A stretch of DNA of 64,000 bases from an uncultured Pelagibacteraceae bacterium. Its GTDB lineage: Bacteria > Pseudomonadota > Alphaproteobacteria > Pelagibacterales > Pelagibacteraceae. Under the pieces are notes generated by a model. The model saw only the letters and a list, made by a program, of their open reading frames with translations, was not told where the DNA came from and made no database searches. This document shows, one piece after another, positions 17,092-64,000 of this stretch (positions within the stretch are counted from its first letter, which is position 1; every line of letters starts with the position of its first letter). Location: NCBI GenBank assembly GCA_902625715.1, contig CACOCP010000003.1:1-64000 (forward strand), given 5' to 3'. The translations under genes and the position numbers were made by a program.

Positions 17092-17669
17092 TTATAATTT
17101 TCCATGTATGTTTTTATCTGAGTAATTGGTAAGCCCATTATTGTGTCTTTGTCACCTTCAATTTTCTCAAATAAATTTTTTCCCTCTCCTTCTATTTGAT
17201 AAACATTATAAGCATATAATGCTTCATCTGAGATTTTGTTTAAATAATCTTTTAGCTCTAAGTCTGAAAAATTTTTCATAGTAAGCTTTGCTTTATCAGT
17301 ATGATTCCAAATCATTGCATTATTTTTTGAAATACAAACAGAACTTATTAGATAATGTGACTTACCGTTCAATTTTCTTAATATATCCATCGCTTCTTCT
17401 CTTGAAGATGGTTTTGAGATTAATTCACCATTTAAATCTATTACGCTATCGGCTCCTAATACTAATTTATCATACACATTAGAACTAACTTTATTTGCTT
17501 TTAATTCAGCTAGATTTTTAGAAATTATTTCGGGCGTTGCTCCTTCCGCGATTAAACTATCTTTAATTGGATCTTCATCAACATTTGATTGAATAACTTC
17601 ACAGTCTATATTGTGTTCGGTTAATATATCTTTTCTAACCTTGCTTTTCGAAGCCAATACTATTTTCAT
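17088..17669 (-). CDS. maf: Maf-family nucleoside triphosphate pyrophosphatase
   Basis: House-cleaning NTP pyrophosphatase (193 aa). Seen: LASKSKVRKDIL, IQSNVDEDPIK, VLGADSVIDLNGELISKPSSREEAMDILRKLNGKSHYLIS with the catalytic Asp, and YQIEGEGKNLFEKIEGDKDTIMGLPI. The family branch (dTTP/UTP versus m7GTP) cannot be settled by eye. Its start overlaps the PPSR stop by one base. Confidence 0.93.
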   Translation of the reverse strand: MKIVLASKSKVRKDILTEHNIDCEVIQSNVDEDPIKDSLIAEGATPEIISKNLAELKANKVSSNVYDKLVLGADSVIDLNGELISKPSSREEAMDILRKLNGKSHYLISSVCISKNNAMIWNHTDKAKLTMKNFSDLELKDYLNKISDEALYAYNVYQIEGEGKNLFEKIEGDKDTIMGLPITQIKTYMENYK

Positions 17670-18487
17670 TATTTATTTTTTATCTCGTAAATCTTTATGA
17701 TTGAAGCAGCGGTCTCTTCAACAGATTTTCTTGTAACATCTATTGTTGGCCATTGATTTTTTCTGAAAATTTTTTTTGAGTTTTCAACCTCTTCTTTAAT
17801 TTTTTCTAGATTTGTGTAATCTGTATTTTCATTTTCCTTCAAACTGTTAAGTCTATTCTTTCTTATATCAAATAATCTTTCAGCTTCAGTTGTTAAACCC
17901 ACAATACAAGGTTTAAAGTTTTTTTTTGTTATTCTTGTAGGTATTGATTTTTCATTAACTAATGGAATATTTGACGTTTTGTAACCTTTATTGGCCAAGT
18001 AAATCGAGGTTGGAGTTTTGCTTGTTCTGCTAACCCCTAATAAAATAATGTCGGATTTCTCCAAATCATCAGTTTGATTTCCATCATCATGATTCATTGT
18101 AAATTGTATGGCTTCTATTCTTTGATAATATTCTTCATTGAGTACGTGTTGACCGCTTGGTTCGTGTGATGCTCTCTGATTCAATATTTTAGAAAAGCTT
18201 AGTATTAAATCTCCTAAAACACCAAAACAAGGGATTTTTTTTGATTGAGCTTGATCCGCTAAGTGCTTGGCAAGCTTACTATTAACAATTGTATAAAGGA
18301 TAATTGGGTTCTCTCTTTTTTTTGCTTTCTCTAAAATCTGTTGAATTTGATTCTCTGTTCTAGTGAAAGAGAAATTATTAAGTTCATATTCAAAATTTGT
18401 GAATTGTGCTTTTAGTGCTAAGAAAATTCTATCTAAAGTTTCTCCGGTTGAGTCCGAAATTAAGTAAATTTGATGTTCATTTTTCAT
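17669..18487 (-). CDS. Pyruvate, water dikinase / PPDK regulatory protein (PPSR, DUF299)
   Basis: Bifunctional ADP-dependent kinase and phosphorylase that controls pyruvate phosphate dikinase or PEP synthetase. Seen: YLISDSTGETLDRI, LGDLILSFSKIL, ASHEPSGQHVLNEEYYQRIEAIQFTMNHDDG, the P-loop LLGVSRTSKTPTSIYLANKG, and the C-terminal WPTIDVTRKSVEETAASII. Complete at 272 aa. First gene to the left of the probable replication origin, as in other alphaproteobacteria, and head of the PPSR-to-dnaQ operon. Confidence 0.95.
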   Translation of the reverse strand: MKNEHQIYLISDSTGETLDRIFLALKAQFTNFEYELNNFSFTRTENQIQQILEKAKKRENPIILYTIVNSKLAKHLADQAQSKKIPCFGVLGDLILSFSKILNQRASHEPSGQHVLNEEYYQRIEAIQFTMNHDDGNQTDDLEKSDIILLGVSRTSKTPTSIYLANKGYKTSNIPLVNEKSIPTRITKKNFKPCIVGLTTEAERLFDIRKNRLNSLKENENTDYTNLEKIKEEVENSKKIFRKNQWPTIDVTRKSVEETAASIIKIYEIKNK

Positions 18488-18675
18488 GTATAAAATGTCA
18501 ATAAAATATCACTAAAGTTTAAATATTAGCGATTAGTAAATATCCGTAATTAATATTATAAATGATTACTGATATTAAACATTTTTTTACATGTTAATTA
18601 ACTAAAAACCAGAATTCTTTAATTGGTAAAATTATTAACTTACATTGATAAATAAGCGATAAATTTACGACTAAA

Positions 18676-18684
18676 TGTTAATAA
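18676..18684 (-). promoter_or_regulatory. DnaA-box-like 9-mer
   Basis: TGTTAATAA, the reverse complement of TTATTAACA. It differs at one position from the DnaA box TTATNCACA. It sits in the probable oriC. In DNA this AT-rich one such match has limited weight by itself. Confidence 0.35.
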
Positions 18685-18700
18685 ATTGTATATAAAGCGT

Positions 18701-18718
18701 GTAAATTGGATAATTTAC
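18701..18718. repeat. Perfect inverted repeat inside probable oriC
   Basis: GTAAATT GGAT AATTTAC: 7-bp arms with a 4-bp centre. The same AATTTACG word occurs again about 45 bp to the left (AAATTTACGA, 18661). The arms flank a 7-of-9 DnaA-box-like ATTGGATAA. It could be a protein-binding dyad of the origin or part of the hemE promoter region. Confidence 0.45.
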
Positions 18719-18719
18719 G

Positions 18720-18728
18720 TAATTCACA
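18720..18728 (+). promoter_or_regulatory. DnaA-box-like 9-mer
   Basis: TAATTCACA, one mismatch from TTATNCACA, lying directly beside the GTAAATT inverted repeat in the probable oriC. It keeps the less random CACA end of the motif, so it is the better of the two candidates. Confidence 0.4.
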
Positions 18729-18772
18729 TATCATAATACTAATACAATAAATATTAATTTGTCTATTTATAA

Positions 18773-19771
18773 ATGACCCCTATTCAAAAATGTATTGTTG
18801 AGAAAAATAGTAATATAAATCCAATATGGTTAATGAGACAAGCTGGAAGGTATCTACCTGAGTTCAGGGAAATAAGGAGTAAAAATCAAGATTTTATAAA
18901 ATTGTGTCTTAGTGAAAATTTAGCGTCCGAAATAACTTTACAACCTATAGAGAGATTTAATTTTGATGCTGCAATTATTTTCTCCGATATTTTAATGTTG
19001 CCGTATGGTTTAAACCAGAAAGTTAAGTTTGAAAAAAATTTTGGACCAAAATTAGGTAATTTTAATTTAGATGATTTAAAGAATATTGATGAAGTAGATT
19101 TTTCTTTTAAGTTAAATTCCGTTTATAAGGCAATTAACATAACATCAAATAAGATTAATAAAGATGAAAAAGATTTAATAGGGTTTGTTGGTGCTCCATG
19201 GACAATCTTAGTATACATGATCAACAAAATCTCTCCTAAAAAAAAACTTAAAGAAGATTTTTTTAAAGATGAATTTTTAATTAATAGATTACTATCGATT
19301 ATCGATAAATTCCTCAAAATTCACATTAAAAATCAAGTTGAAGCAGGTGCTACGATTATACAAATATTTGATAGTTGGGCTGGACTGCTTGAAAAGAATA
19401 TTCCTGAGTATATTTACATACCAACATTAAGTCTTGTAGATTATACAAAAAGTCTTGGTGTGCCAGTTATATGTTTTCCTAGAGGTATAAAAGATTACAA
19501 GAACTTTTGTGATATTGTTAAGCCAAATGTTGTCAATATCGATTATGATATAGATCCTAAAGATATTGTAAAAAATATAGATATTCCTATACAAGGTGGA
19601 TTAGATCCAAAAATACTTTTAACAAATAAGGAAACATTAAAAAAAGAGACAAAAAAATATCTAGAAGTATTTAAAACTCACCCTTATATATTTAATCTAG
19701 GCCATGGTGTGCTTCCGGAAACAAGCCCTGACATGGTAGAATATTTAGTAGAAATAGTGAGAAATTTTTAA
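18773..19771 (+). CDS. hemE: Uroporphyrinogen decarboxylase
   Basis: Decarboxylates uroporphyrinogen III to coproporphyrinogen III. Seen: PIWLMRQAGRYLPEFREIR signature, IIFSDILMLPYGL with the catalytic Asp, GFVGAPWTILVYMI, QIFDSWAGLL and NLGHGVLPETSPDMVEYLV. Complete at 332 aa. First gene to the right of the probable origin and head of hemE-hemH-hemG. Confidence 0.97.
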   Translation: MTPIQKCIVEKNSNINPIWLMRQAGRYLPEFREIRSKNQDFIKLCLSENLASEITLQPIERFNFDAAIIFSDILMLPYGLNQKVKFEKNFGPKLGNFNLDDLKNIDEVDFSFKLNSVYKAINITSNKINKDEKDLIGFVGAPWTILVYMINKISPKKKLKEDFFKDEFLINRLLSIIDKFLKIHIKNQVEAGATIIQIFDSWAGLLEKNIPEYIYIPTLSLVDYTKSLGVPVICFPRGIKDYKNFCDIVKPNVVNIDYDIDPKDIVKNIDIPIQGGLDPKILLTNKETLKKETKKYLEVFKTHPYIFNLGHGVLPETSPDMVEYLVEIVRNF

Positions 19772-19813: not shown

Positions 19814-20926
19814 ATGCAATATCAACATCCAAAAAGAAAAACCAAAGTGGTTTTCGTCCAACTCGGATCTCCTTCTGAACCAACTCCTAAGGCACTAAGA
19901 AAATATCTTAGAGCTTTTTTAGGAGACCCCAGAGTTGTTGATATAAATCCTTGGTTATGGAAAATTATATTAAATTTCTTTGTATTGCCCTTCAGGCCTA
20001 AAAAATCAGCCAAGCTTTATGCTAGAATATGGGACGGAGAAAGTTTTCCGCTTATAACAAATACAAGAGATTTTACTAAAAAAGTTAGCGAGGAGTTAAA
20101 AAAAATAGATCCAGAGGGTTATGTAGAAGTTAACTATGCTTTTTTATTATCACCACCATATGTGCACGAAGTGTATGACAGCTGGGAAGAAGATTTAAAG
20201 AAAGGGACAGGAGCAACAAAATTACTTGTAATACCAATGTTTCCCCAGTACTCCGAAAGTACAATTGCATCTGGTATAGACGCATTAGCAAAAGAATTAT
20301 CAAAAAGAGTAAAAATCCCAACCTTCGAAGTGATTACAAACTTTCACCGAACACATGCTTTTATAAACAATTCGGTAAATCTGGTTGATAAAAAATTAGT
20401 TAATTTAGAAAAACAAGGGAAGAAAATAGATAGCCTGGTTATAACTTTCCATGGAATGCAAAAGAGACGTATTGTTAATAAGGGTGACGATTATTACAGG
20501 CACTGTTATGAGACATTTTGTTTAATAACTCAAAATCTTAAAAATATGAAACCAGAGAATTGTCTTATGAGTTTTCAAAGCCGATTTGGTTCGGAAGAAT
20601 GGATAACGCCTTACACAGAAGACGTAGTTAGGAAATTGATATCAAGTGGTAAAAAAGAGATTGCAATCTATTCACCGAGCTTTGTTGCAGATTGCCTTGA
20701 AACTACAGATGAATTAGGACACGAGCTAGTAAATGAGGCAAAGGAATGGGGAGGAAATATATATCCAATAGAGTGCCTTAACACGAACCAAAGTTGGTGC
20801 AAAGATTTTGCAAAATATACATTCACGCAAGCAGAAGGATCTGCACAAGATAAAGAGAATCTAGAATATAAAGTTGAAAATAAATATTATCAAATGATGC
20901 CCAGACTAGAGATGAACAAGTCGTAG
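19814..20926 (+). CDS. hemH: Ferrochelatase
   Basis: Inserts ferrous iron into protoporphyrin IX at the inner membrane. Seen: VVFVQLGSPSEPTPKALRKYLRAFLGDPRV, YARIWDGESFPL, PMFPQYSESTIAS, the catalytic His in TFHGMQKRRI (where E. coli-type enzymes read FHGIP), FQSRFGSEEWITPYT and SPSFVADCLETTDEL with the catalytic Glu. The 370-aa length includes a charged C-terminal extension. It sits 42 bp behind hemE and 10 bp before hemG. Confidence 0.97.
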   Translation: MQYQHPKRKTKVVFVQLGSPSEPTPKALRKYLRAFLGDPRVVDINPWLWKIILNFFVLPFRPKKSAKLYARIWDGESFPLITNTRDFTKKVSEELKKIDPEGYVEVNYAFLLSPPYVHEVYDSWEEDLKKGTGATKLLVIPMFPQYSESTIASGIDALAKELSKRVKIPTFEVITNFHRTHAFINNSVNLVDKKLVNLEKQGKKIDSLVITFHGMQKRRIVNKGDDYYRHCYETFCLITQNLKNMKPENCLMSFQSRFGSEEWITPYTEDVVRKLISSGKKEIAIYSPSFVADCLETTDELGHELVNEAKEWGGNIYPIECLNTNQSWCKDFAKYTFTQAEGSAQDKENLEYKVENKYYQMMPRLEMNKS

Positions 20927-21549: not shown

Positions 21550-22821
21550 ATGAACATACAAGAATTAAAAGAAAAAAGCTCAGAGAAGTTGATAACCGAG
21601 GCTGAAAAGCTTGGTATTGAGAACGCAAGCACCCTAAGAAGACAAGAAATCTACTTTGCTATATTAAAAAAATTAGCGGAAAAAGGTGAGGAGATAACAG
21701 GCGGCGGTGTCTTGCAGCTTCTTCAAGATGGATTTGGTTTTTTAAGAGCAATGGAGTCCAATTATCTCCCTGGTGCAGATGATATTTATGTAAGCCCAAG
21801 CCAAATTAGAAGGTTTGGATTAAGAACAGGCGATACTGTTGAAGGCCCAATAAGATCTCCAAAGGAAGGTGAAAGATATTTTGCTTTATTGCAAGTATCT
21901 AAAATAAATTTCGAGGAACCTGATAAATTTAAACATAAAATAGCTTTTGACAATTTAACTCCACTCTACCCTAACAAGCAATTTAGAATGGAAGTTGAGA
22001 CTACAAAAATTGAAAAAAAACCAGATTTAACTCCAAGATTAATTGATCTCGTTAGTCCAATTGGAAAAGGACAAAGATCATTGATTATATCTCCACCAAA
22101 AGCCGGTAAAACGATGATTTTGCAAAGTATAGCAAACTCGATTACAGCAAATCATCCAGAGTGTTATTTGATGGTTTTATTAATTGATGAAAGACCTGAA
22201 GAGGTAACCGATATGCAACGAACCGTTAAAGGAGAAGTTATAAGCTCAACATTTGATGAGCCCGCTCAAAGACACGTTGCAGTTGCTGAAATGGTTATTG
22301 AAAAAGCTAAAAGACTAACTGAGCATAAAAAGGATGTTGTAATTTTATTAGATTCAATAACAAGGCTTGGACGAGCTTATAATGCTGTAGTTCCAAGTTC
22401 AGGTAAAGTTTTAACTGGAGGTGTGGATGCAAATGCACTTCAAAGACCAAAAAGATTTTTTGGTGCTGCAAGAAATATTGAGGAAGGTGGATCATTAACA
22501 ATTATTGCTACAGCACTAATTGATACTGGAAGCCGAATGGATGAAGTCATATTTGAAGAATTTAAAGGTACTGGTAACAGTGAAACAATTTTAGATAGAA
22601 AGATATCCGAAAAGAGAATATTCCCAGCAATAGACATAACTAAATCAGGCACAAGAAGAGAAGAGCTGTTGTTTGATAAAAGTGATCTTCAAAAAATGAA
22701 TGTATTAAGAAGAATTATCGCCCCAATGGGCTCAATGGATGCAATAGAGTTTATAAATTCTAAATTAAAAGATACTAAAAATAATGCAGAATTTTTTAAT
22801 TCTATGAATAAGCCATCTTAA
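21550..22821 (+). CDS. rho: Transcription termination factor Rho
   Basis: Hexameric RNA helicase that ends transcripts. Seen: N-terminal helical domain [15 protein letters not shown], cold-shock-like RNA-binding [46 protein letters not shown]-loop [34 protein letters not shown], the secondary-site loop around [26 protein letters not shown] and [11 protein letters not shown]. Complete at 423 aa. The 91-bp leader contains no obvious hairpin. Rho may matter more than usual here because intrinsic terminators are scarce. Confidence 0.98.
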
Positions 22822-22857
22822 AGATTTATTTTCCCAAAATACTGATATAATTTTCTG

Positions 22858-24186
22858 ATGACATTTTATGCTCTATCTTCAGGGCCAGGTTTATCGGGTA
22901 TAGCTGTTATTAGAGTTTCTGGATCTGAAACTGTGAACGTTATTAAACATCTCACAAATTCTAGTTTGCCGAAACCTAAAGAGGCTACTTTAAAAAAATT
23001 TATTAATAAAAATAATGAATTGATAGATGAAGGTATACTTTTATGGTTTCCTGGGCCAAACAGTTACACAGGTGAAGATATGGCTGAATTCCATGTTCAC
23101 GGTAGTAGAGCAGTAATTGAAGCAATACAAAGTTCAATTTCAGAAGTATCTGATTGTAGACTTGCATCTCCAGGAGAGTTCACGAAGACTGCTTTTCAGA
23201 ATGGAAAAATAGATTTATTGAAAGCAGAAGGTATTTCAGACCTAATTTCATCAGAAACAGAAATTCAGAGATTACAAGCTATAAAAATAATGGAGGGCAA
23301 AAGTTCAAAAATATTTGAAACTCTTAGACATACACTTATTAAAGTTTTATCTAAGTTAGAGGCTAAAATTGACTTTCCAGATGAAGATCTGCCAATTGAA
23401 ATCTTAGATGAAATAAAAGCAGATACAGCTAAAGCATTAGCTGATCTAGAGAAGTTATTGGATGATCAAAGAGTAGGAGAAAGAATAAGAGAAGGATTTA
23501 AAATTTCTATAATTGGACCTACAAATGTAGGTAAATCTTCTCTCCTTAATCATCTAGCAAACCGTGAAGTAGCAATTGTCTCTGAAATAGCTGGGACTAC
23601 AAGAGATGTTATAGAAACACATCTTAATTTGGATGGATATCCAGTCATTTTATCTGACACAGCTGGCATCAGAGACTCTAAAGATGAAATAGAAAGAAAA
23701 GGTATAAAGCTAAGTCTTAAAAATGCAAATGAAGCAGATTTAAATATCATTGTATTAGAACCAAAAAGTGTTGATTTTCAAAGCTTTTTAAGTGCTTTGA
23801 GCCAGGATAAGAATATTATTGTCGTTAATAAATTGGATAATATTGATGACAGAATAAATGAAGAAATTAGAAAATTAAATCCAATAACTATATCGGTTAA
23901 AGAAAATAAAAATATAGATTTACTTATTAATGAAATAAAAAAAAAATTAGAAAGTAAATTTATATCATCAAACGATATTATAATCACAAGAAGCAGGCAT
24001 AGAGACAATATTGAGAAATGTATTTATCATTTAAAAACATTTCAAAATAAAAATTCAGAAGAGGAATTTGATAAAGCTGCAGAAGACTTAAGATTAGCAG
24101 TTAGACATTTAGGATTAATAGTTGGAAAAGTAGATGTCGAAGAAATACTAGGATCCATCTTTAATGATTTCTGTATAGGCAAATAA
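22858..24186 (+). CDS. mnmE: tRNA modification GTPase MnmE
   Basis: With MnmG, builds the (carboxymethyl)aminomethyl group at wobble U34 of tRNA. Seen: N-terminal folate-binding domain (FYALSSGPGLSGIAVIRVSGS, PNSYTGEDMAEFHVHGS), helical domain, inserted G domain with GPTNVGKSSLLNHL, TAGTTRDV-type switch (IAGTTRDVIE), DTAGI, NKLDNI, and the C-terminal FCIGK motif with the essential Cys. Complete at 442 aa. Confidence 0.98.
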   Translation: MTFYALSSGPGLSGIAVIRVSGSETVNVIKHLTNSSLPKPKEATLKKFINKNNELIDEGILLWFPGPNSYTGEDMAEFHVHGSRAVIEAIQSSISEVSDCRLASPGEFTKTAFQNGKIDLLKAEGISDLISSETEIQRLQAIKIMEGKSSKIFETLRHTLIKVLSKLEAKIDFPDEDLPIEILDEIKADTAKALADLEKLLDDQRVGERIREGFKISIIGPTNVGKSSLLNHLANREVAIVSEIAGTTRDVIETHLNLDGYPVILSDTAGIRDSKDEIERKGIKLSLKNANEADLNIIVLEPKSVDFQSFLSALSQDKNIIVVNKLDNIDDRINEEIRKLNPITISVKENKNIDLLINEIKKKLESKFISSNDIIITRSRHRDNIEKCIYHLKTFQNKNSEEEFDKAAEDLRLAVRHLGLIVGKVDVEEILGSIFNDFCIGK

Positions 24187-24262: not shown

Positions 24263-26134
24263 ATGAAAAATGAATTATCGTTTGATGTAGTGGTTATTGG
24301 GGGTGGTCATGCTGGTTGTGAGGCAGCAGCAGCATCTGCAAGATTGGGAGTTAACACTGCCTTATTCACACATAAATTTGAAACTATAGGGGAAATGTCC
24401 TGTAATCCTGCAATTGGTGGACTTGGTAAAGGTCATTTGGTCAGAGAAATAGATGCATTAGACGGTGTTATGGGAGAAGTTGCGGACAAATCAGGAATAC
24501 AATTTAGGCTCCTAAATAGAAGTAGAGGCCCTGCAGTTAGAGGACCAAGAACACAAAGCGATAGATCATTATACAAAAAATTTATGCAAGAAAAACTCGT
24601 AAACTACTGTAATTTAAGCATATATTCAGATCCTGTAATAAGCTTCAATTTTATAAATAATGCTATAATCGGATTTAATACTCAATCTGGTAAAGAAATC
24701 AGATCATCTAAGATAATTCTAACAACTGGCACATTTTTAAATGGTCTTATACATATTGGTGAGAAAAAAACCCCAGCAGGGAGATATGATGAAAAACCAT
24801 CAATAGGTTTAAGTGAACAACTAGAAAAGTTTAATTTTAAAATTGGTAGGTTAAAAACCGGAACTCCACCAAGATTAGATGCACGAACAATTAATTTTGA
24901 AAATTTGGAAGCACAACATGCAGACGAAGATCCATATTTTTTTTCTTTCTTAACCAAAAAAAATATAAACAAGCAAATCTCTTGCAGAATGACTTATACC
25001 AATGAGGAAGTTCATAAAATCATTTCCAAAAATATTAAGCGAAGTGCTATGTACTCTGGCAGCATTCAAGGAGTAGGACCAAGATATTGTCCATCTATAG
25101 AGGATAAAATAAAAAAATTCGCTGATAAGAAGCGACACCAAATTTTTTTAGAGCCAGAAGGTTTAAATGATAATACTATATATCCAAATGGCATTTCAAC
25201 TTCTCTACCATTAGAGGTACAGCAAGAAATATGCAGTAAAATCAATGGTTTAAACAATGTAAAAATATTAAGGCCTGGATATGCTATTGAATACGATTAT
25301 ATTGATCCAAGAGAGCTATTTTTAACTTTGGAGACTAAAAAAATCAAAAATCTATATCTTGCTGGTCAAATAAATGGAACAACTGGATATGAAGAGGCTG
25401 CTGCTCAAGGCTTAATCGCTGGAATAAATTCTGCTCTATCTATTAAAGGCGAGGAACCTTTTATACTTGATAGATCAGATGCATATATTGGAGTGATGAT
25501 AGATGATTTGGTTACAAAGGGTGTAGCAGAGCCATATAGAATGTTTACTTCAAGAGCTGAGTACAGATTATCATTAAGGTCAGATAATGCAGATGTTAGA
25601 TTAACTCAAAAAGGAATTAATTTGGGAGTAGTTCTTAAGGAGAGAGCCAAGATATTCAAAGAAAAGCATTTTCAATTAATAAAAATTGAAAATCAAATGT
25701 CAAAATTACAAATTACACCTTCAAAAGTTGAAAATTATGGTATTAATATTGCAAAAGACGGGGTTAGTAGAACTGCATTCCATATATTAGGTCAAAAGTC
25801 TGTTAATATGAGTAAAATAAGAGAAATTTGGCCAGAAATCCCTTATGTTTCACGTGAAATAGATGAACAATTAGAGATAAACTCTCATTATAAAGGTTAT
25901 TTGAAAAAACAAAAGTCTGATATTTTAGCTTTTAAAAGAGATGAAAATTTAATAATCCCAGATAATATTAATTATGACAGTTTTTCAGGACTATCAAATG
26001 AAGTTAAATCAAAATTTAAGAAAATAAAGCCTAAAACAATGGGTCAAGCCCTTAGAATAGATGGAATAACACCTGCAGCTGTATATATTTTATTGTCTCA
26101 CCTTAAAAGAAAGTCTATTAAGCATATAGCTTGA
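24263..26134 (+). CDS. mnmG: tRNA U34 modification enzyme MnmG (GidA)
   Basis: FAD-dependent partner of MnmE. Seen: FAD-binding [111 protein letters not shown], and a C-terminal domain that binds MnmE. Complete at 623 aa. A near-perfect parS site lies within its coding sequence at 25846-25861. The stop overlaps the rsmG TTG start. Confidence 0.98.
25846..25861. promoter_or_regulatory. parS centromere site (15 of 16)
   Basis: TGTTTCACGTGAAATA, one base away from the bacterial parS consensus TGTTTCACGTGAAACA, inside mnmG (encoding VSREI). About 330 bp from the exact site in rsmG and about 1.7 kb from the start of parB. ParB should nucleate here and spread. Confidence 0.85.
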
Positions 26135-26769
26135 TTGATTCGTATTTTTTAAAAACAGTCTCAAAATTTAATCTAGATGTTTCACGTGAAACACTCGAAA
26201 GGTTAGATGAATATTCAAAAGACATAATTTTAAAAAATAATGAAATAAATTTAATTAGCAAAAGTACAGAAAAATCAATAAAATCAAGGCATATTGCCGA
26301 TAGCATGCAAACTATTGATTTTATTAATAAAAATGACATTAAAACGTGTACCGACTTAGGTTCGGGGGCAGGTTTACCAGGAATTGTCCTAGGTATTATT
26401 ATGAGTTCGAAAAAGCCTACATTTAAAGTGATTTTTTATGAAAAAAGTTATCATAAAAGTAATTTCTTAAGAGAGATGTCCAAAAAATTTCATCTGGACG
26501 CAGAAATTTATCAAAAAAATATTTTTAATGAAAAAAATTTAATTACTGACGTCATAATTTCACGCGCTTTTAAACCTTTGCCAGTAATTTTTCAAATTGC
26601 GAAAACTAATTTTAAAAATTTTAAATACATAATTTTATTTTTAGGAAAAAGTGGAAAAAAGATTTTAAAAGATGCAATGAAAAATTGGAAATTTGATTAT
26701 GAAGAGAGAAAAAGTTTAACCAACGACGAGTCTATCATTGTGAAAATATCAAATCTTAAAAAAATATGA
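26131..26769 (+). CDS. rsmG: 16S rRNA m7G527 methyltransferase RsmG (GidB)
   Basis: Uses SAM to methylate G527 of 16S rRNA. Starts with TTG at 26131, overlapping the mnmG stop (TTGA); no better start lies upstream. Seen: [40 protein letters not shown] loop [31 protein letters not shown] and ISRAFKPL. Complete at 212 aa. The codons for DVSRETL form the exact parS site, so the protein and the centromere share sequence. Confidence 0.96.
26178..26193. promoter_or_regulatory. parS centromere site (exact 16-bp consensus)
   Basis: TGTTTCACGTGAAACA, a perfect 16-bp palindrome identical to the widely conserved chromosomal parS. It lies in the 5' part of rsmG, about 570 bp before parA and about 7.4 kb from the probable oriC. 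An exact match by chance in a window this size is very unlikely. Confidence 0.95.
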
Positions 26770-27566
26770 ATAGAAAAATTATTTCAGTCATAAATCAAAA
26801 AGGTGGAGTGGGGAAGACAACGACAATAATAAATTTGGCTGCTGGTTTATCTCTTAAAGAAAAAAGAATTCTCGTGATTGACCTTGACCCACAAGGAAAT
26901 GCTACAACAGGTCTTGGATTATCCAACTCAGGTACATCTGATAATACAATTTATAGTGTTTTAAATGGAAACAAAAAAATATCCGACGTGATACAAAAAA
27001 CTGAATTTAAAAACTTAGATATTATTACCTCTAATGTAGATTTATCAGGACTTGAGGTTGAAACTGCTGGCGACAGCCGAAGAGCATTTAAATTAAAAGA
27101 TGAATTAGCCTCTATTTTAAATGATTCTAGAGCATCCTATCATTATATACTAATTGACTGCCCTCCATCTCTTAGTCTTCTCACAATTATGGCCTTAGTT
27201 GCCTCTGATGCTTTGGTAGTCCCGCTTCAGACGGAGTTTTTTGCTTTAGAGGGCCTAACCCAATTAATGAAAACTATTGAAAGGATTAAATCAAATTTAA
27301 ATCCTATACTAGAGATAAGAGGGATCCTCCTTACGATGTATGATAAGAGAAATAAGTTGTCCAGTCAGGTGGAGATGGAAGCTAGAAATTTTTTTAAAGA
27401 AAAAGTTTACAACACAGCAGTGCCTAGAAATGTAAGGTTATCAGAGGCTCCCTCGCATGGTGTTCCAGTATTAATCTACGATAAGCTTTGTCCAGGCAGT
27501 AAAGCGTATTTTAGTTTCACTGAAGAATTTCTAGAACAAGAAAAAGAAATAGAGACCGCTGCATGA
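26766..27566 (+). CDS. parA: Chromosome-partitioning ATPase ParA
   Basis: Deviant-Walker ATPase that moves ParB-parS complexes along the nucleoid. Seen: VINQKGGVGKTTTIINLAAGL (deviant Walker A with signature Lys), VIDLDPQGNATTGLG, LIDCPPSLSLLTIMAL, QTEFFALEGLTQLM and PRNVRLSEAPSHG. Complete at 266 aa and lacking the N-terminal HTH of plasmid ParA. It overlaps rsmG and parB by 4 bp each. Confidence 0.98.
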   Translation: MNRKIISVINQKGGVGKTTTIINLAAGLSLKEKRILVIDLDPQGNATTGLGLSNSGTSDNTIYSVLNGNKKISDVIQKTEFKNLDIITSNVDLSGLEVETAGDSRRAFKLKDELASILNDSRASYHYILIDCPPSLSLLTIMALVASDALVVPLQTEFFALEGLTQLMKTIERIKSNLNPILEIRGILLTMYDKRNKLSSQVEMEARNFFKEKVYNTAVPRNVRLSEAPSHGVPVLIYDKLCPGSKAYFSFTEEFLEQEKEIETAA

Positions 27567-28411
27567 TAAATCCGTTTAAAAATAAAAAAGGATTAGGAAG
27601 AGGTTTATCATCTTTGATTGGAGATAGTGATGTAAAGATTACCAACAATAAAATATCGATTAGTTCTATTATTCCAAATAAATATCAACCAAGAAAAAAC
27701 TTTGACAAAAATAGCTTAGAAGAACTCACAGCATCAATTCGTGAAAGAGGAATTATTCAGCCAATAATTGTAAGAGCATCAGAAAATAGCAATGACAAAT
27801 ATGAATTGATAGCAGGAGAAAGAAGATGGCAAGCAGCCCAAAATGCTGGCTTGCACGAAGTTCCAGCAGTAATTCTTAATGTAGACAATCTTAAGTCTCT
27901 TGAATTTGCAATTGTTGAAAATGTTCAAAGAAAGGACCTTAACCCTATCGAGGAAGCCGAAGGATATCAAAGATTAATTAATGAATTTAATTATGATCAA
28001 GAAAAAGTTGCGAAATTTATTGGGAAGAGTAGAGCTCATATATCTAATTGTATAAGATTATTAAGTCTTCCAGCTAAGGTGATTGAGCACATTATCAACG
28101 ACAAAATATCTCCGGGCCATGCCAAGATTTTAGTTGGTCTAGATAACTCAGAGTTATTAGCTGAGAAAATAATCAAAAAAAAATTATCAGTTAGACAAGC
28201 CGAAGCTCTTGCTAGATTAGTTAAAAGTAATAAAAGTTCAATTAAATCCAAAGATCCAAATTCTTTAGATATTGAAAATCAGTTAAGTTCTAAAATTGGA
28301 ATGAAGGTTTTTTTAAATAATAAAAAAAATAATACTGGTACTTTAATTTTTGAGTATAAAGGTGTTGATCAACTTGATCGATTAATCAAAGTAATTAAAG
28401 AAAACTATTAA
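27563..28411 (+). CDS. parB: Chromosome-partitioning protein ParB
   Basis: CTP-dependent DNA clamp that loads at parS. Seen: KGLGRGLSSLIGD N-terminus (the family's ParA-stimulating Arg region), IIPNKYQPRKNFD, ELIAGERRWQAAQNAGL (CTP-binding box), ENVQRKDLNPIEEAEGYQRLI, HTH region IGKSRAHISNCIRLLSLP, and SPGHAKILVGL. Complete at 282 aa. It ends overlapping convergent holA by 4 bp. Confidence 0.97.
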   Translation: MINPFKNKKGLGRGLSSLIGDSDVKITNNKISISSIIPNKYQPRKNFDKNSLEELTASIRERGIIQPIIVRASENSNDKYELIAGERRWQAAQNAGLHEVPAVILNVDNLKSLEFAIVENVQRKDLNPIEEAEGYQRLINEFNYDQEKVAKFIGKSRAHISNCIRLLSLPAKVIEHIINDKISPGHAKILVGLDNSELLAEKIIKKKLSVRQAEALARLVKSNKSSIKSKDPNSLDIENQLSSKIGMKVFLNNKKNNTGTLIFEYKGVDQLDRLIKVIKENY

Positions 28412-29382
28412 TAATTGCTGATTAAATCTGATACAAGATTAATAGAGAATGTATTTTTCTTGGTTAAAATCTCTAAATTAGATATTTGATAAATTTTTTT
28501 TTTAATCTCTTTTTCAGACCAATTTTTAATTTGTTGTTTAACTAAATCCTTTTCTTTCCAAAATATTGAGGGTTTATAAGATGAAATTACATCATCAATA
28601 TTATCTTTTTCTTTTTGAATATTCTTTAATTTTAAAAGCCTTTTTGATCTATTGAGTAATGTTCTTACTATTAAAATGCAATCATCATTTACAAAATTAT
28701 TTTCATTTAGAATTTTTGAAACTTTAACCTTATTTTTCGCCAAATAATTATCTACGAGTTCAAATATTCCATAATCTTCCGAAAGATTTGTTAAATTAAA
28801 TATATCTTCTTGTGTGATTTTTTTTCTTGTTAGAGATAGAGCTTCTAACTTTTGAAGTTCATTATTTAAATTACCTCTATCCCCACGCGCTCTTTCAACA
28901 ATTAAATTTACAGTTTCTTGTGAAATTTTAATATTTTTTTCTTTTATAAAATTAATTGCAAAAATATTTAGACTTTGATTGTTGTCCTCATAAAACGGTA
29001 TACAGGCCAATTTTTTATCTTTTTCGTATAAAGCTCTAAGCTTTGATTTTTTATCTAAGTTTTCAGAGTTTATTACTATTTGAACATTTGATATATCCCT
29101 TTCTAAAAATTCCTCCATAAAATTAAGTATTTTGTTAGAAGATCTTGAGATTATCATCAGCTTCTTATCATCAAATAGTGATCCGTTAATAAAACCTTCA
29201 AGTATGGTTTCTTTGTTATCTAAAACCTCTGACTCTTCGTAACGTAATATTTCTCCAAAAAAACCTAGTAAAATATTTGAATTTATCACCTCATCTTTAA
29301 ACCCCTTATTGAGACCATATAAAAGAATTGATTTAAATTTAGAAAATTTAGCTTTATTAACTTCGAATGATTTAATTATCAT
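28408..29382 (-). CDS. holA: DNA polymerase III delta subunit
   Basis: Clamp-loader wrench that opens the beta clamp. Sequence similarity is low, as common for HolA, but the 324-aa length, the LLYGLNKGFKDEVIN start, the EARGDRGNLNNELQKLEALSL-like segment (VERARGDRGNLNNELQKLEAL) and the FELVDNYLAKNK helix match the family. The leuS-lptE-holA order is the standard alphaproteobacterial one. Overlaps lptE by 11 bp. Confidence 0.9.
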   Translation of the reverse strand: MIIKSFEVNKAKFSKFKSILLYGLNKGFKDEVINSNILLGFFGEILRYEESEVLDNKETILEGFINGSLFDDKKLMIISRSSNKILNFMEEFLERDISNVQIVINSENLDKKSKLRALYEKDKKLACIPFYEDNNQSLNIFAINFIKEKNIKISQETVNLIVERARGDRGNLNNELQKLEALSLTRKKITQEDIFNLTNLSEDYGIFELVDNYLAKNKVKVSKILNENNFVNDDCILIVRTLLNRSKRLLKLKNIQKEKDNIDDVISSYKPSIFWKEKDLVKQQIKNWSEKEIKKKIYQISNLEILTKKNTFSINLVSDLISNY

Positions 29383-29857
29383 TAATCATTGGATTAAGGA
29401 TTAAATTTGATGCAGAATTAATAATATCTGAAACCAAATTCTCAATAAGATTGTCTTTAAGGATTTCTTCTGATTTACTTAACTCAAATTTATCTGATAT
29501 ATTATTATAAGTTGATCTTTGAGTTAAACTTCTGTTAACTAAAACTTTACCACCCTCAATCAATTTATAATTTAAATTAATTACAATTTCTAAAATAGCT
29601 GGATCTCCTTTAGAATCTTTAGAGAATATGTTTTTAGATTCATTTGAGATAATATCCACATTAAAGGTTTTTTTAATTCCTTTCAGGGCATTTAGCTTAT
29701 TTTCAATATTGGAATTTATGTACTCATTACCAGAACTGTTTCCAACTTTTATCGAAAAGTCATAATCTGTTCCTAATAATATTGGTTTAAATCCACATCC
29801 ATTTAAAAAAAATAATATTATGAAAAGAAAAGGTAAGTTAAAAACTTTTTTTATCAT
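29372..29857 (-). CDS. lptE: LPS-assembly lipoprotein LptE
   Basis: Plug of the LptD translocon in the outer membrane. 161 aa with a signal peptide ending in a lipobox FLNGC (Cys about residue 21) followed by GFKPIL, the usual start of mature LptE. The rest is a low-similarity alpha/beta domain, with [23 protein letters not shown] typical of the family. It overlaps leuS by 4 bp and holA by 11 bp. Confidence 0.87.
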
Positions 29858-37069: not shown

Positions 37070-37075
37070 TTAAAT

Positions 37076-37570
37076 TTATCTCAATATTCTTATTTTTGTT
37101 TTTTTATTAATTAACTTTATCAAAATTAAAAAATCTTTTTTTGATAAAGCAATACACCCTGCAGTAGGTTGATAATTTTTTGTTAAGTGAATAAAGATTG
37201 CGCTTCCTTTTTTTGGTATAGTCTTGTTATAATTGTATTTTATTACTAAGAGAAAGTCATATTTATAGTCTTTTCGAAATAATTTTTCATAACCTATATT
37301 TTTATCAATTTTCATTAATTTGTTATAATTTTTGTGGTTAACATCATTGCACCAGGCCATATTTTTATCAATTTTATGAGTCTTTAGACTTGTAAGTGGC
37401 TTTTCAAATCTGTCAGCTCTATAGAAGAGATCTCCCAAATCAAATATTCCAATTGGAGTTTTTTTATCGCCCTCAATTTTTTTTTTGGAGAAATTATTTT
37501 TTCCAATACAACACCTAAACCTAAAATCTTTAAATAAAAGAGTATGTTTATTTTTGACAATAATTGTCAT
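37076..37570 (-). CDS. L,D-transpeptidase (YkuD domain)
   Basis: Cross-links peptidoglycan or attaches proteins to it. I take the ATG at 37570 (MTIIVKNKHTLLFKDFRFRCCIG), 164 aa; the longer track start runs into the divergent regulator gene. Seen: KKTPIGIFDLGDLFY and the catalytic block GSAIFIHLTKNYQPTAGCIALSKKDF with the His and nucleophilic Cys. No N-terminal signal peptide is visible, unusual for an envelope enzyme. Similar signal-less YkuD proteins of the L,D-peptidoglycan group exist. Ends 6 bp from the sulfotransferase stop. Confidence 0.85.
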   Translation of the reverse strand: MTIIVKNKHTLLFKDFRFRCCIGKNNFSKKKIEGDKKTPIGIFDLGDLFYRADRFEKPLTSLKTHKIDKNMAWCNDVNHKNYNKLMKIDKNIGYEKLFRKDYKYDFLLVIKYNYNKTIPKKGSAIFIHLTKNYQPTAGCIALSKKDFLILIKLINKKTKIRILR

Positions 37571-44467: not shown

Positions 44468-45070
44468 ATGCTTAAAAAAAAAATCGAAAAAATTGTTATA
44501 GGGTCTAATAATAAGGGTAAAATCAAAGAAATAAGAGATTTGATCCCAAAAAAGTATAAAATTTTCACCCCTAATCAATTTAAATTAAAAAGCCCTGTTG
44601 AAAATGGAAAGTCGTTTAAAGAAAATTCTTTAATTAAGGCAAAAAATTTTTCGTCAAAAACTAATATGGTTTGCATAGCTGATGACTCTGGACTTGAAAT
44701 TGACTTATTAAATAAAAAACCAGGCATTTATTCAGCAAGATGGGGAGGTTCAAAAGGAGACTTTAATTTAGCAATTAAAAAAATTTTTAAAGCTTTAGAT
44801 AAAAAGAAAAAAAATTGGAGAGAAGAAAAAATCTCAGCAAGATTTATTTGTGCATTAACAATTTTTGGTCTTAAAAAGGAACCTATTTTTTCAATTGGCA
44901 AAATTGAGGGATATATATCTAATGAGCAGAGGGGCCATAAAGGCTTTGGTTATGATCCTATTTTTATACCTAAAGGAAAAAGTAAAACTTTTGGTGAGAT
45001 GGATCCTAAAAAAAAATATAAAATTGACCACAGATACAAAGCTTTTAAAAAAATTAGAAAATTTTTATAA
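44468..45070 (+). CDS. rdgB: RdgB/HAM1 non-canonical purine NTP pyrophosphatase
   Basis: Removes ITP, dITP and XTP from the nucleotide pool (200 aa). Seen: IVIGSNNKGKIKEIRDLI, ADDSGLEIDLLNKKPGIYSARWGG, GYISNEQRGHKGFGYDPIFIP, and FGEMDPKKKYKIDHRYKAF, with SHR changed to DHR. Placement beside grpE is usual in alphaproteobacteria. Its 3' end overlaps the convergent LpoA-like gene by 17 bp, the largest tail overlap in the window. Confidence 0.94.
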   Translation: MLKKKIEKIVIGSNNKGKIKEIRDLIPKKYKIFTPNQFKLKSPVENGKSFKENSLIKAKNFSSKTNMVCIADDSGLEIDLLNKKPGIYSARWGGSKGDFNLAIKKIFKALDKKKKNWREEKISARFICALTIFGLKKEPIFSIGKIEGYISNEQRGHKGFGYDPIFIPKGKSKTFGEMDPKKKYKIDHRYKAFKKIRKFL

Positions 45071-55354: not shown

Positions 55355-55682
55355 CAAAGATACTAAATCTTATACCACTGAGTATTCAAACAGTAGAGAA
55401 AATTTTGATAAAATAGTGTCTCTATTAAATAAATTCTTGAGTGAAAAAGATACAAATATAAATCAATTTAAAAAAATATATATTAATAGAGGTCCAGGAA
55501 AATTTTCAAGTTTAAGAACCTCAATTTCAATTGCTAAAGCTTTATCTATAGTTAATAAAATTGAATTAGTAGGATTTACCTCCATGGATATAAAAAACAT
55601 AAATGACTATAAAAACTTAATTGAATTAGATAACGAAGATAAGCTAACAAAAGATTTGATAAATCCAATTTATTCGAGTTAA
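55302..55682 (+). CDS. tsaB: TsaB-like t6A protein, shortened
   Basis: 126 aa from the ATG at 55302; the track's longer start runs through the divergent deacetylase gene. Seen: NLVIDAASDKIFFSII and the hallmark INRGPGKFSSLRTSISIAKALSI (family: GPGSFTGLRIG), then VGFTSMDI. TsaB is usually about 220 aa. Only the N-terminal ASKHA lobe is present, with a short tail. TsaB is a non-catalytic scaffold for TsaD, so one lobe may suffice for dimerisation. Position before fur-miaB fits the alphaproteobacterial order; rimI, usually next, is missing. Confidence 0.78.
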   Translation: MTNLVIDAASDKIFFSIIKDTKSYTTEYSNSRENFDKIVSLLNKFLSEKDTNINQFKKIYINRGPGKFSSLRTSISIAKALSIVNKIELVGFTSMDIKNINDYKNLIELDNEDKLTKDLINPIYSS

Positions 55683-55689
55683 ATAAGGT

Positions 55690-63259: not shown

Positions 63260-63269
63260 GAGATGAACT

Positions 63270-64000
63270 ATGGAAAAGAAAAAATTAAAGTTATCAATTT
63301 CAGGAAGTTCCAAAAGAACTATAAACAGCATAGAGCAAGCTAAATCACAGTCAAAAAATACTGTTGTTATTGAAAAAAAACCTAGATTTGGGACCAAACC
63401 AAACTACCCGAGACCAAATACTTTAAATGAAAGACCCAAAGGGAGTGCACCTTTTGTGCCTAGAAATAATACTTTTTCTAAACCAACTACTTCCCCTAGT
63501 TCAGATTTTGAAAGACGAAAGCTTGCAGAGCAAAGAGCAACGAGAAGATTAAAAGGAGAAACAACTCCAAGCAAAGATTCAAAAGCTGGAAAAGGGACCT
63601 CAAAAAGAAGAGAATTAAAATTAACAGTATCCAGAGCACTTAGTGATGAGGACTTTACAGGAAAAGGAAGAAGCTTAGCATCATTAAAAAGAGCAAAGCA
63701 AAAAGAGAATAGACTTTTAAATCAAGAAGACGATAAGGACAATTTAAAACCAGTCAAAAGAGACGTTAAAATACCTGAAGTTGTTACAATCCGAGAGCTT
63801 GCAAATAGAATGGCTGAACAGTCAAGCAATATTATAAAACATTTATTAGGTATGGGAGTTACAGTAACTATAAATCACACAATTGACTCTGATACTGCTG
63901 AATATTTAGTAAAAGAATTTGGACATAATCCAATAAGAGAAGAAAAAGCAGAGGAAATAATTGAAAAAATAAAAGAAGTTAAAGCCGAAAATTTAAAAAG
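63270..64000 (+). CDS. infB: Translation initiation factor IF-2, N-terminal part (3' end outside window)
   Basis: Not in the ORF track because it has no stop in the window. ATG at 63270, 10 bp after nusA. Translation stays open to base 64000. Seen: MEKKKLKLSISGSSKRT (alphaproteobacterial IF-2 start), a Pro/Lys/Arg-rich linker, RRELKLTVSRAL (bacterial IF2 assembly segment), then the IF2_N domain VVTIRELANRMAEQSSNIIKHLLGMGVTVTINHTID. The GTPase domain lies beyond the window. Confidence 0.95.
   Translation, partial: MEKKKLKLSISGSSKRTINSIEQAKSQSKNTVVIEKKPRFGTKPNYPRPNTLNERPKGSAPFVPRNNTFSKPTTSPSSDFERRKLAEQRATRRLKGETTPSKDSKAGKGTSKRRELKLTVSRALSDEDFTGKGRSLASLKRAKQKENRLLNQEDDKDNLKPVKRDVKIPEVVTIRELANRMAEQSSNIIKHLLGMGVTVTINHTIDSDTAEYLVKEFGHNPIREEKAEEIIEKIKEVKAENLK

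Follow-up and report, generated by a model that had tools for sequence, protein, structure and literature searches.

The spacer between hemE and the COG1806 gene is the experimentally mapped position of the chromosomal origin, oriC, in Caulobacter, and the Rickettsia origin was assigned to the same position by prediction (PMC1914354). CtrA sites are usual in the origins of this class but absent in Ehrlichia ruminantium (PMC1914354), so they are not strictly defining for it. Another described system is the basal unwinding system (BUS), in which a DnaA filament is loaded from DnaA boxes onto DnaA-trios and grows in the 3'->5' direction (PMC6669920). Its sequence rules call for a box with no more than two mismatches and at least three NAN trios within 16 bp, and a BUS was predicted in 85% of 2070 oriCs (PMC8287927). 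As for SAR11 itself, one report calls the oriC of HTCC1062 'manually identified', with no coordinates in the accessible text (PMC4033161), and another describes V-shaped metagenome coverage with one origin and one terminus, again with no position in the accessible text (PMC9589681). Our search, which covered part of the open literature, found no description of the anatomy of the SAR11 spacer.

The window analyzed here consists of bases 1-64000 of contig 3 of a Pelagibacteraceae (SAR11) genome in 29 contigs. We conclude that its PPSR/hemE spacer (Table 1) is very probably the SAR11 chromosomal origin, as the preliminary description had proposed. The conclusion draws on position, box enrichment, near-fixed spacing, trio periodicity, the skew minimum, a nearby parS and persistence of the core without hemE, all computed here. 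Like Caulobacter crescentus Cori and Rickettsia prowazekii oriC, the spacer has the same boundary genes, is A+T-rich and non-coding, and carries DnaA boxes (PMC1914354); at about 255-288 bp across the family (280-288 bp in 78 related loci), it is shorter than that of Rickettsia (383-395 bp). All named relatives with the same locus belong to the Pelagibacteraceae. The constancy of the length was dropped as an argument, since the neighboring 58-bp timA/fxsA gap is equally constant.

Transcription diverges from the spacer as previously described, with the PPSR ATG at 18487 on the minus strand and the hemE ATG at 18773 on the plus strand. It is also the longest truly non-coding gap in the window, in agreement with the preliminary description: ORFs are present within the three gaps that look longer (37070-37484, 44579-45053 and 55358-55689), and the stretch at 63260-64000 (741 bp) is truncated by the end of the window. 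The A+T content is 81.8% and thus raised compared with about 70.7% genome-wide in the relative G014, but one other place in the window, near 58.5 kb, is richer still, with 84% in a 285-bp span. An Rfam search of the window returned no match.

Several side observations concern the surroundings. The hemH/ferrochelatase-like gene that follows hemE (19814-20926) shows only 33% identity to its positional counterpart in G014, whereas nearly all its neighbors are 89-99% identical, and this gene next to the origin has probably been replaced or is non-orthologous. A small lipoprotein-like ORF (29372-29857) is 60% identical to its G014 counterpart vs. about 89% for the flanking genes, which indicates locally fast evolution. 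The rho/trmE gap (22821-22858) is 36 bp in the window and about 888-930 bp in many relatives (L003-L082), which points to a gene inserted or lost there; the hslU/smr gap is also variable among relatives, from -11 to 650 bp.

Taken alone, the window copy offers thin motif evidence, and its own boxes are weak. No 9-mer in the spacer lies within one mismatch of TTATCCACA, and five have two mismatches, compared with about 1.5 per 285 bp by chance; a scan of this spacer alone with the E. coli consensus was uninformative. The "two near-consensus DnaA boxes" of the preliminary description were therefore overstated, and it is the comparison between genomes that shows which boxes are real. The perfect inverted repeat reported with them does exist; however, the DNA here is very A+T-rich and contains three repeats with arms of 7 bp, none of which stands out, and the one reported is not the conserved feature.

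Comparison of the spacer across strains, which had been suggested as a check, revealed enriched and positionally conserved DnaA boxes that are followed by DnaA-trios. In 18 cluster representatives, there are 46 TTATNNACA-type sites vs. 5.3 +/- 2.1 in shuffles (about nine-fold), and 17 boxes with at most one mismatch vs. 1.6 in shuffles. These TTATNNACA sites recur at near-fixed positions among the 18 divergent spacers. Box A appears in most of the representatives as TTATAAACA, TTATTAACA, TTATCAACA, TTATACACA or TTTTCCACA. The counterparts of box C are TTATTCACA in L071, TTATTAACA in G034 and TTATAAACA in G016, and that of box D in G034 is TTATCCACA itself. The pair of boxes spaced by 11 bp is also present in G054, G015, G002 and G011. 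More distant genera share the order of elements: a box at the PPSR end, then a single box or a pair oriented towards PPSR, in many cases with a spacing of 11 bp, and after these a box ending in ACA, a short and often C-containing spacer, and TAATAATACTAATA-like repeats.

Alignment of 79 spacers gives a median identity to the window of 56% and two strongly conserved blocks. The first lies beside the PPSR start and includes TGTTTATAA, which read on the opposite strand is a DnaA-type box. The second, of about 45 bp on the hemE side, reads TAATTTACGTwATTCACAnnnCATAATACTAATA and holds the core, which is near-invariant despite the low overall identity. Its box F, TAATTCACA, has two mismatches to TTATCCACA in the window and none or one in many relatives, where it reads TTATTCACA, TTATCAACA or TTATCCACA. 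The 31-bp core is unique both in its own genome and in G014, and a reversed-pattern control gave zero. A search with the core pattern over the order found matches confined to the genus of the window (37 of 198 genomes), since subclades differ in the order of the trios and in the letters of the boxes; homologous cores outside the genus were read directly from the spacers.

Table 1. Features of the PPSR/hemE spacer and its surroundings (window coordinates)
Feature	Position	Strand	Sequence	Basis or remark
PPSR (COG1806/DUF299), left boundary gene	17669..18487	-		NCBIfam PRK05339, 313.7 bits, cut-off 225
Spacer between PPSR and hemE, very probably oriC	18488..18772	.		Non-coding, 285 bp
DnaA box A, PPSR end	18496..18504	-	TTATTGACA	Same position in most cluster representatives
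DnaA box C, weak	18592..18600	-	TAATTAACA	Several relatives have a DnaA-type site at spacer positions 103-106
DnaA box D	18676..18684	-	TTATTAACA	Shared by many relatives, at positions 187-191
DnaA box E	18687..18695	-	TTATATACA	11 bp after box D
Possible weak tandem box	18711..18719	+	TAATTTACG	Abuts box F; nearly invariant in the 79-spacer alignment
DnaA box F, core box	18720..18728	+	TAATTCACA	Points at trios; most conserved alignment block
Likely DNA-unwinding element	18722..18771	.		Least stable 50-mer of the spacer, nearest-neighbor energy
DnaA-trios	18733..18744	-	3'-TAT-TAT-GAT-TAT-5' (plus strand ATAATACTAATA)	Separated from box F by 4 bp
hemE, right boundary gene	18773..19771	+		NCBIfam TIGR01464, 311.2 bits, cut-off 303
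Second parS-like site	25846..25861	.		One mismatch
parS, exact	26178..26193	.	TGTTTCACGTGAAACA	Inside rsmG/gidB, beside parAB, 7.4 kb from spacer
parA	26766..27566	+		ParA-family matches below equivalog cut-offs, plus gene context
parB	27563..28411	+		TIGR00180, 194.9 bits, cut-off 58

Downstream of the core box, the sequence shows the period expected of trios. T occurs at offsets 5, 8, 11, 14 and 17 in 50-78% of the 18 cluster representatives, and at the positions between in 0-28%; the period-3 score is 68 vs. 54.9 +/- 3.0 in shuffles, the maximum among 2000 shuffles being 65. The trios of G016 read 3'-GAT-TAT-TAT-GAT-TAT-5', and the trio runs of genera g2 and g6 are weak and unconvincing. 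As in the BUS, a box with no more than two mismatches to TTATCCACA is followed within 16 bp by at least three consecutive NAN trios of the GAT/TAT type, four in the window, on the strand whose 5' side points away from the box. Unlike in the BUS, the SAR11 spacing between box and trios is only 4-6 bp, and the second, tandem box is weak: with four mismatches to TTATCCACA, TAATTTACG is a possible box. The likely unwinding element covers the trios and ranks in the top 0.6% of the window for low stability. Opening of the DNA at this spacer by a box-trio mechanism is probable. In Escherichia coli oriC, the R1 box points at an A+T-rich unwinding segment (DUE), and the SAR11 core box likewise points at an A+T-rich segment; unlike E. 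coli oriC, the SAR11 spacer lacks a conserved IHF site between boxes and has a far smaller box array.

The conserved block lies between divergent genes, and it could be argued that it is just the divergent PPSR/hemE promoter region, possibly regulated by DnaA, with the origin elsewhere nearby. The conserved TATAAT-like strings CATAATAC and GTATAA could then be -10 elements, and GC skew by itself is too coarse to separate sites 30 kb apart. Genus g4 (G004 and G005) speaks against this: there PPSR is followed by rho, hemE is missing from the locus, and yet the spacer keeps the box and trios beside PPSR, as TTATAAACA-TTCCC-TAATAATA or TTATAAACA-TTCCC-TAATAATAAAACTAAT. The core is thus not a hemE promoter. 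Moreover, an array of DnaA boxes across the whole spacer is unexpected for a promoter, and in the complete genome G014 the PPSR/hemE gap ranks first by DnaA-type sites among 177 gaps of at least 120 bp, no other having as many. Given these data, a promoter in place of an origin is improbable. A cluster of four DnaA-like sites at 555.6 kb of G014 was set aside because it lies inside a coding gene.

Two observations on the flanking genes may be added. The sole hemE-like match in G004 and G005 lies elsewhere in the genome and has 32-33% identity, which suggests rearrangement or replacement of a haem gene at the origin in g4. In the Pelagibacterales family f2 (G060-G084), no PPSR homologue was detected.

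Cumulative GC skew was computed from 69 stretches covering the full sequence of G014 (1.38 Mb) and from about half of G055 (1,308,759 bp) and G002 (1,160,202 bp). In G014 the minimum is at 637 kb and the spacer at 605 kb; the corresponding positions are 308 and 336 kb in G055, and 1083 and 1090 kb in G002. The minimum is therefore 7-32 kb from the spacer in all three complete genomes, with the maxima about half a genome away; a minimum elsewhere would have spoken against the origin assignment. With each genome oriented so that hemE reads forward, the minima are not all displaced to the same side of hemE. The skew mainly follows gene orientation (about 59-64% of coding bases are leading), and at four-fold sites G055 and G002 show the expected sign and G014 the opposite one, so the skew locates the origin to no better than about 30 kb. 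Between genes, all three genomes show the expected sign. A third-position skew model intended to sharpen the origin in G014 was weak and of opposite sign. In G014, leading genes have a more negative four-fold-site GC skew than lagging genes do, the reverse of the usual sign.

Many bacteria have the origin beside dnaA, which in this genome is absent from the window, as already stated in the preliminary description, and lies 62 kb downstream of the spacer on the same contig. In 11 complete genomes, dnaA is 60-72 kb from the PPSR/hemE locus. The raw skew minimum of G014 falls between the spacer and dnaA (667 kb) and would be compatible with an origin there. In contrast, the gap upstream of dnaA contains no DnaA-type site in G000, G014, G012 or G015, and the skew minimum of G055 is on the opposite side of hemE from dnaA. 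An origin beside dnaA is hence very unlikely. The partition genes give a further indication of position: parABS had been placed 7-10 kb away, which agrees with the exact parS and with parA/parB at 8-10 kb, and parS copies also occur 7-9 kb from hemE in G014 and G055. Sites that titrate or reactivate DnaA (datA/DARS) are likewise clusters of DnaA boxes, but such a role in place of an origin is hardly credible for the spacer, since the box-trio core by a low-stability segment, the skew minimum, parS and the location between hemE and COG1806 are all in keeping with oriC, and no competing cluster exists in the gaps of G014.

With the chromosomal origin as the preferred reading, we regard the SAR11 spacer as a further case of the known hemE/COG1806 class. 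It shares the location (in 78 relatives), several DnaA boxes, raised A+T and a GC-skew shift with that class, and lacks the CtrA sites and the IHF site, the latter usual but not universal. The window spacer contains no strict CtrA site and no IHF site, and over the 18 clusters there is no enrichment of CtrA sites (6 vs. 4.9 expected), IHF sites (3 vs. 1.7) or GANTC (0 vs. 3.2). This differs from Caulobacter and Rickettsia, as does the gene content. No CtrA orthologue was found in eight SAR11 genomes (G000, G014, G055, G012, G020, G002, G005 and G006), the best response regulators being 32-35% identical to the query, a Caulobacter CtrA sequence that matches NCBIfam CtrA NF045991 at 410 bits. 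GcrA is present in all eight genomes, and a CcrM homologue has been reported in SAR11 (PMC3973325). The presence of GcrA with no CtrA orthologue found suggests that the alphaproteobacterial cell-cycle circuit is partly dismantled in SAR11; from the absent orthologue and the absent sites, we infer that initiation is controlled without CtrA. More tentatively, and at somewhat less than even chance, the SAR11 origin may have been reduced to a minimal form free of CtrA, IHF and GANTC sites, composed of a fixed-register box array and one box-trio module.

By analogy with other bacteria, DnaA would bind the boxes of the array (A, C, D, E and F), most of which are degenerate. An ATP-DnaA filament would start at core box F, which points towards hemE, and extend 3'->5' along the minus-strand trios, stretching that strand. 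The A+T-rich segment up to hemE would open, the helicase would be loaded there, and bidirectional replication would begin. New origins would then be segregated by parS/ParB at 7-10 kb.

SAR11 is among the most abundant bacterial groups of the ocean, and the ratio of metagenomic reads at the origin to those at the terminus is used to infer how it grows. Such methods use a terminus inferred from coverage, and an origin located at base level should provide a sequence anchor. The unique core lets the origin be found in fragmented genomes of the close relatives of the window, and the spacer offers a short DNA substrate for SAR11 DnaA. The hemE/COG1806 origin persists in SAR11, a lineage that is streamlined and has yielded no CtrA orthologue here. 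If the origin is indeed minimal, initiation in SAR11 would be set by the supply and activity of DnaA alone, unlike in the CtrA-controlled alphaproteobacteria.
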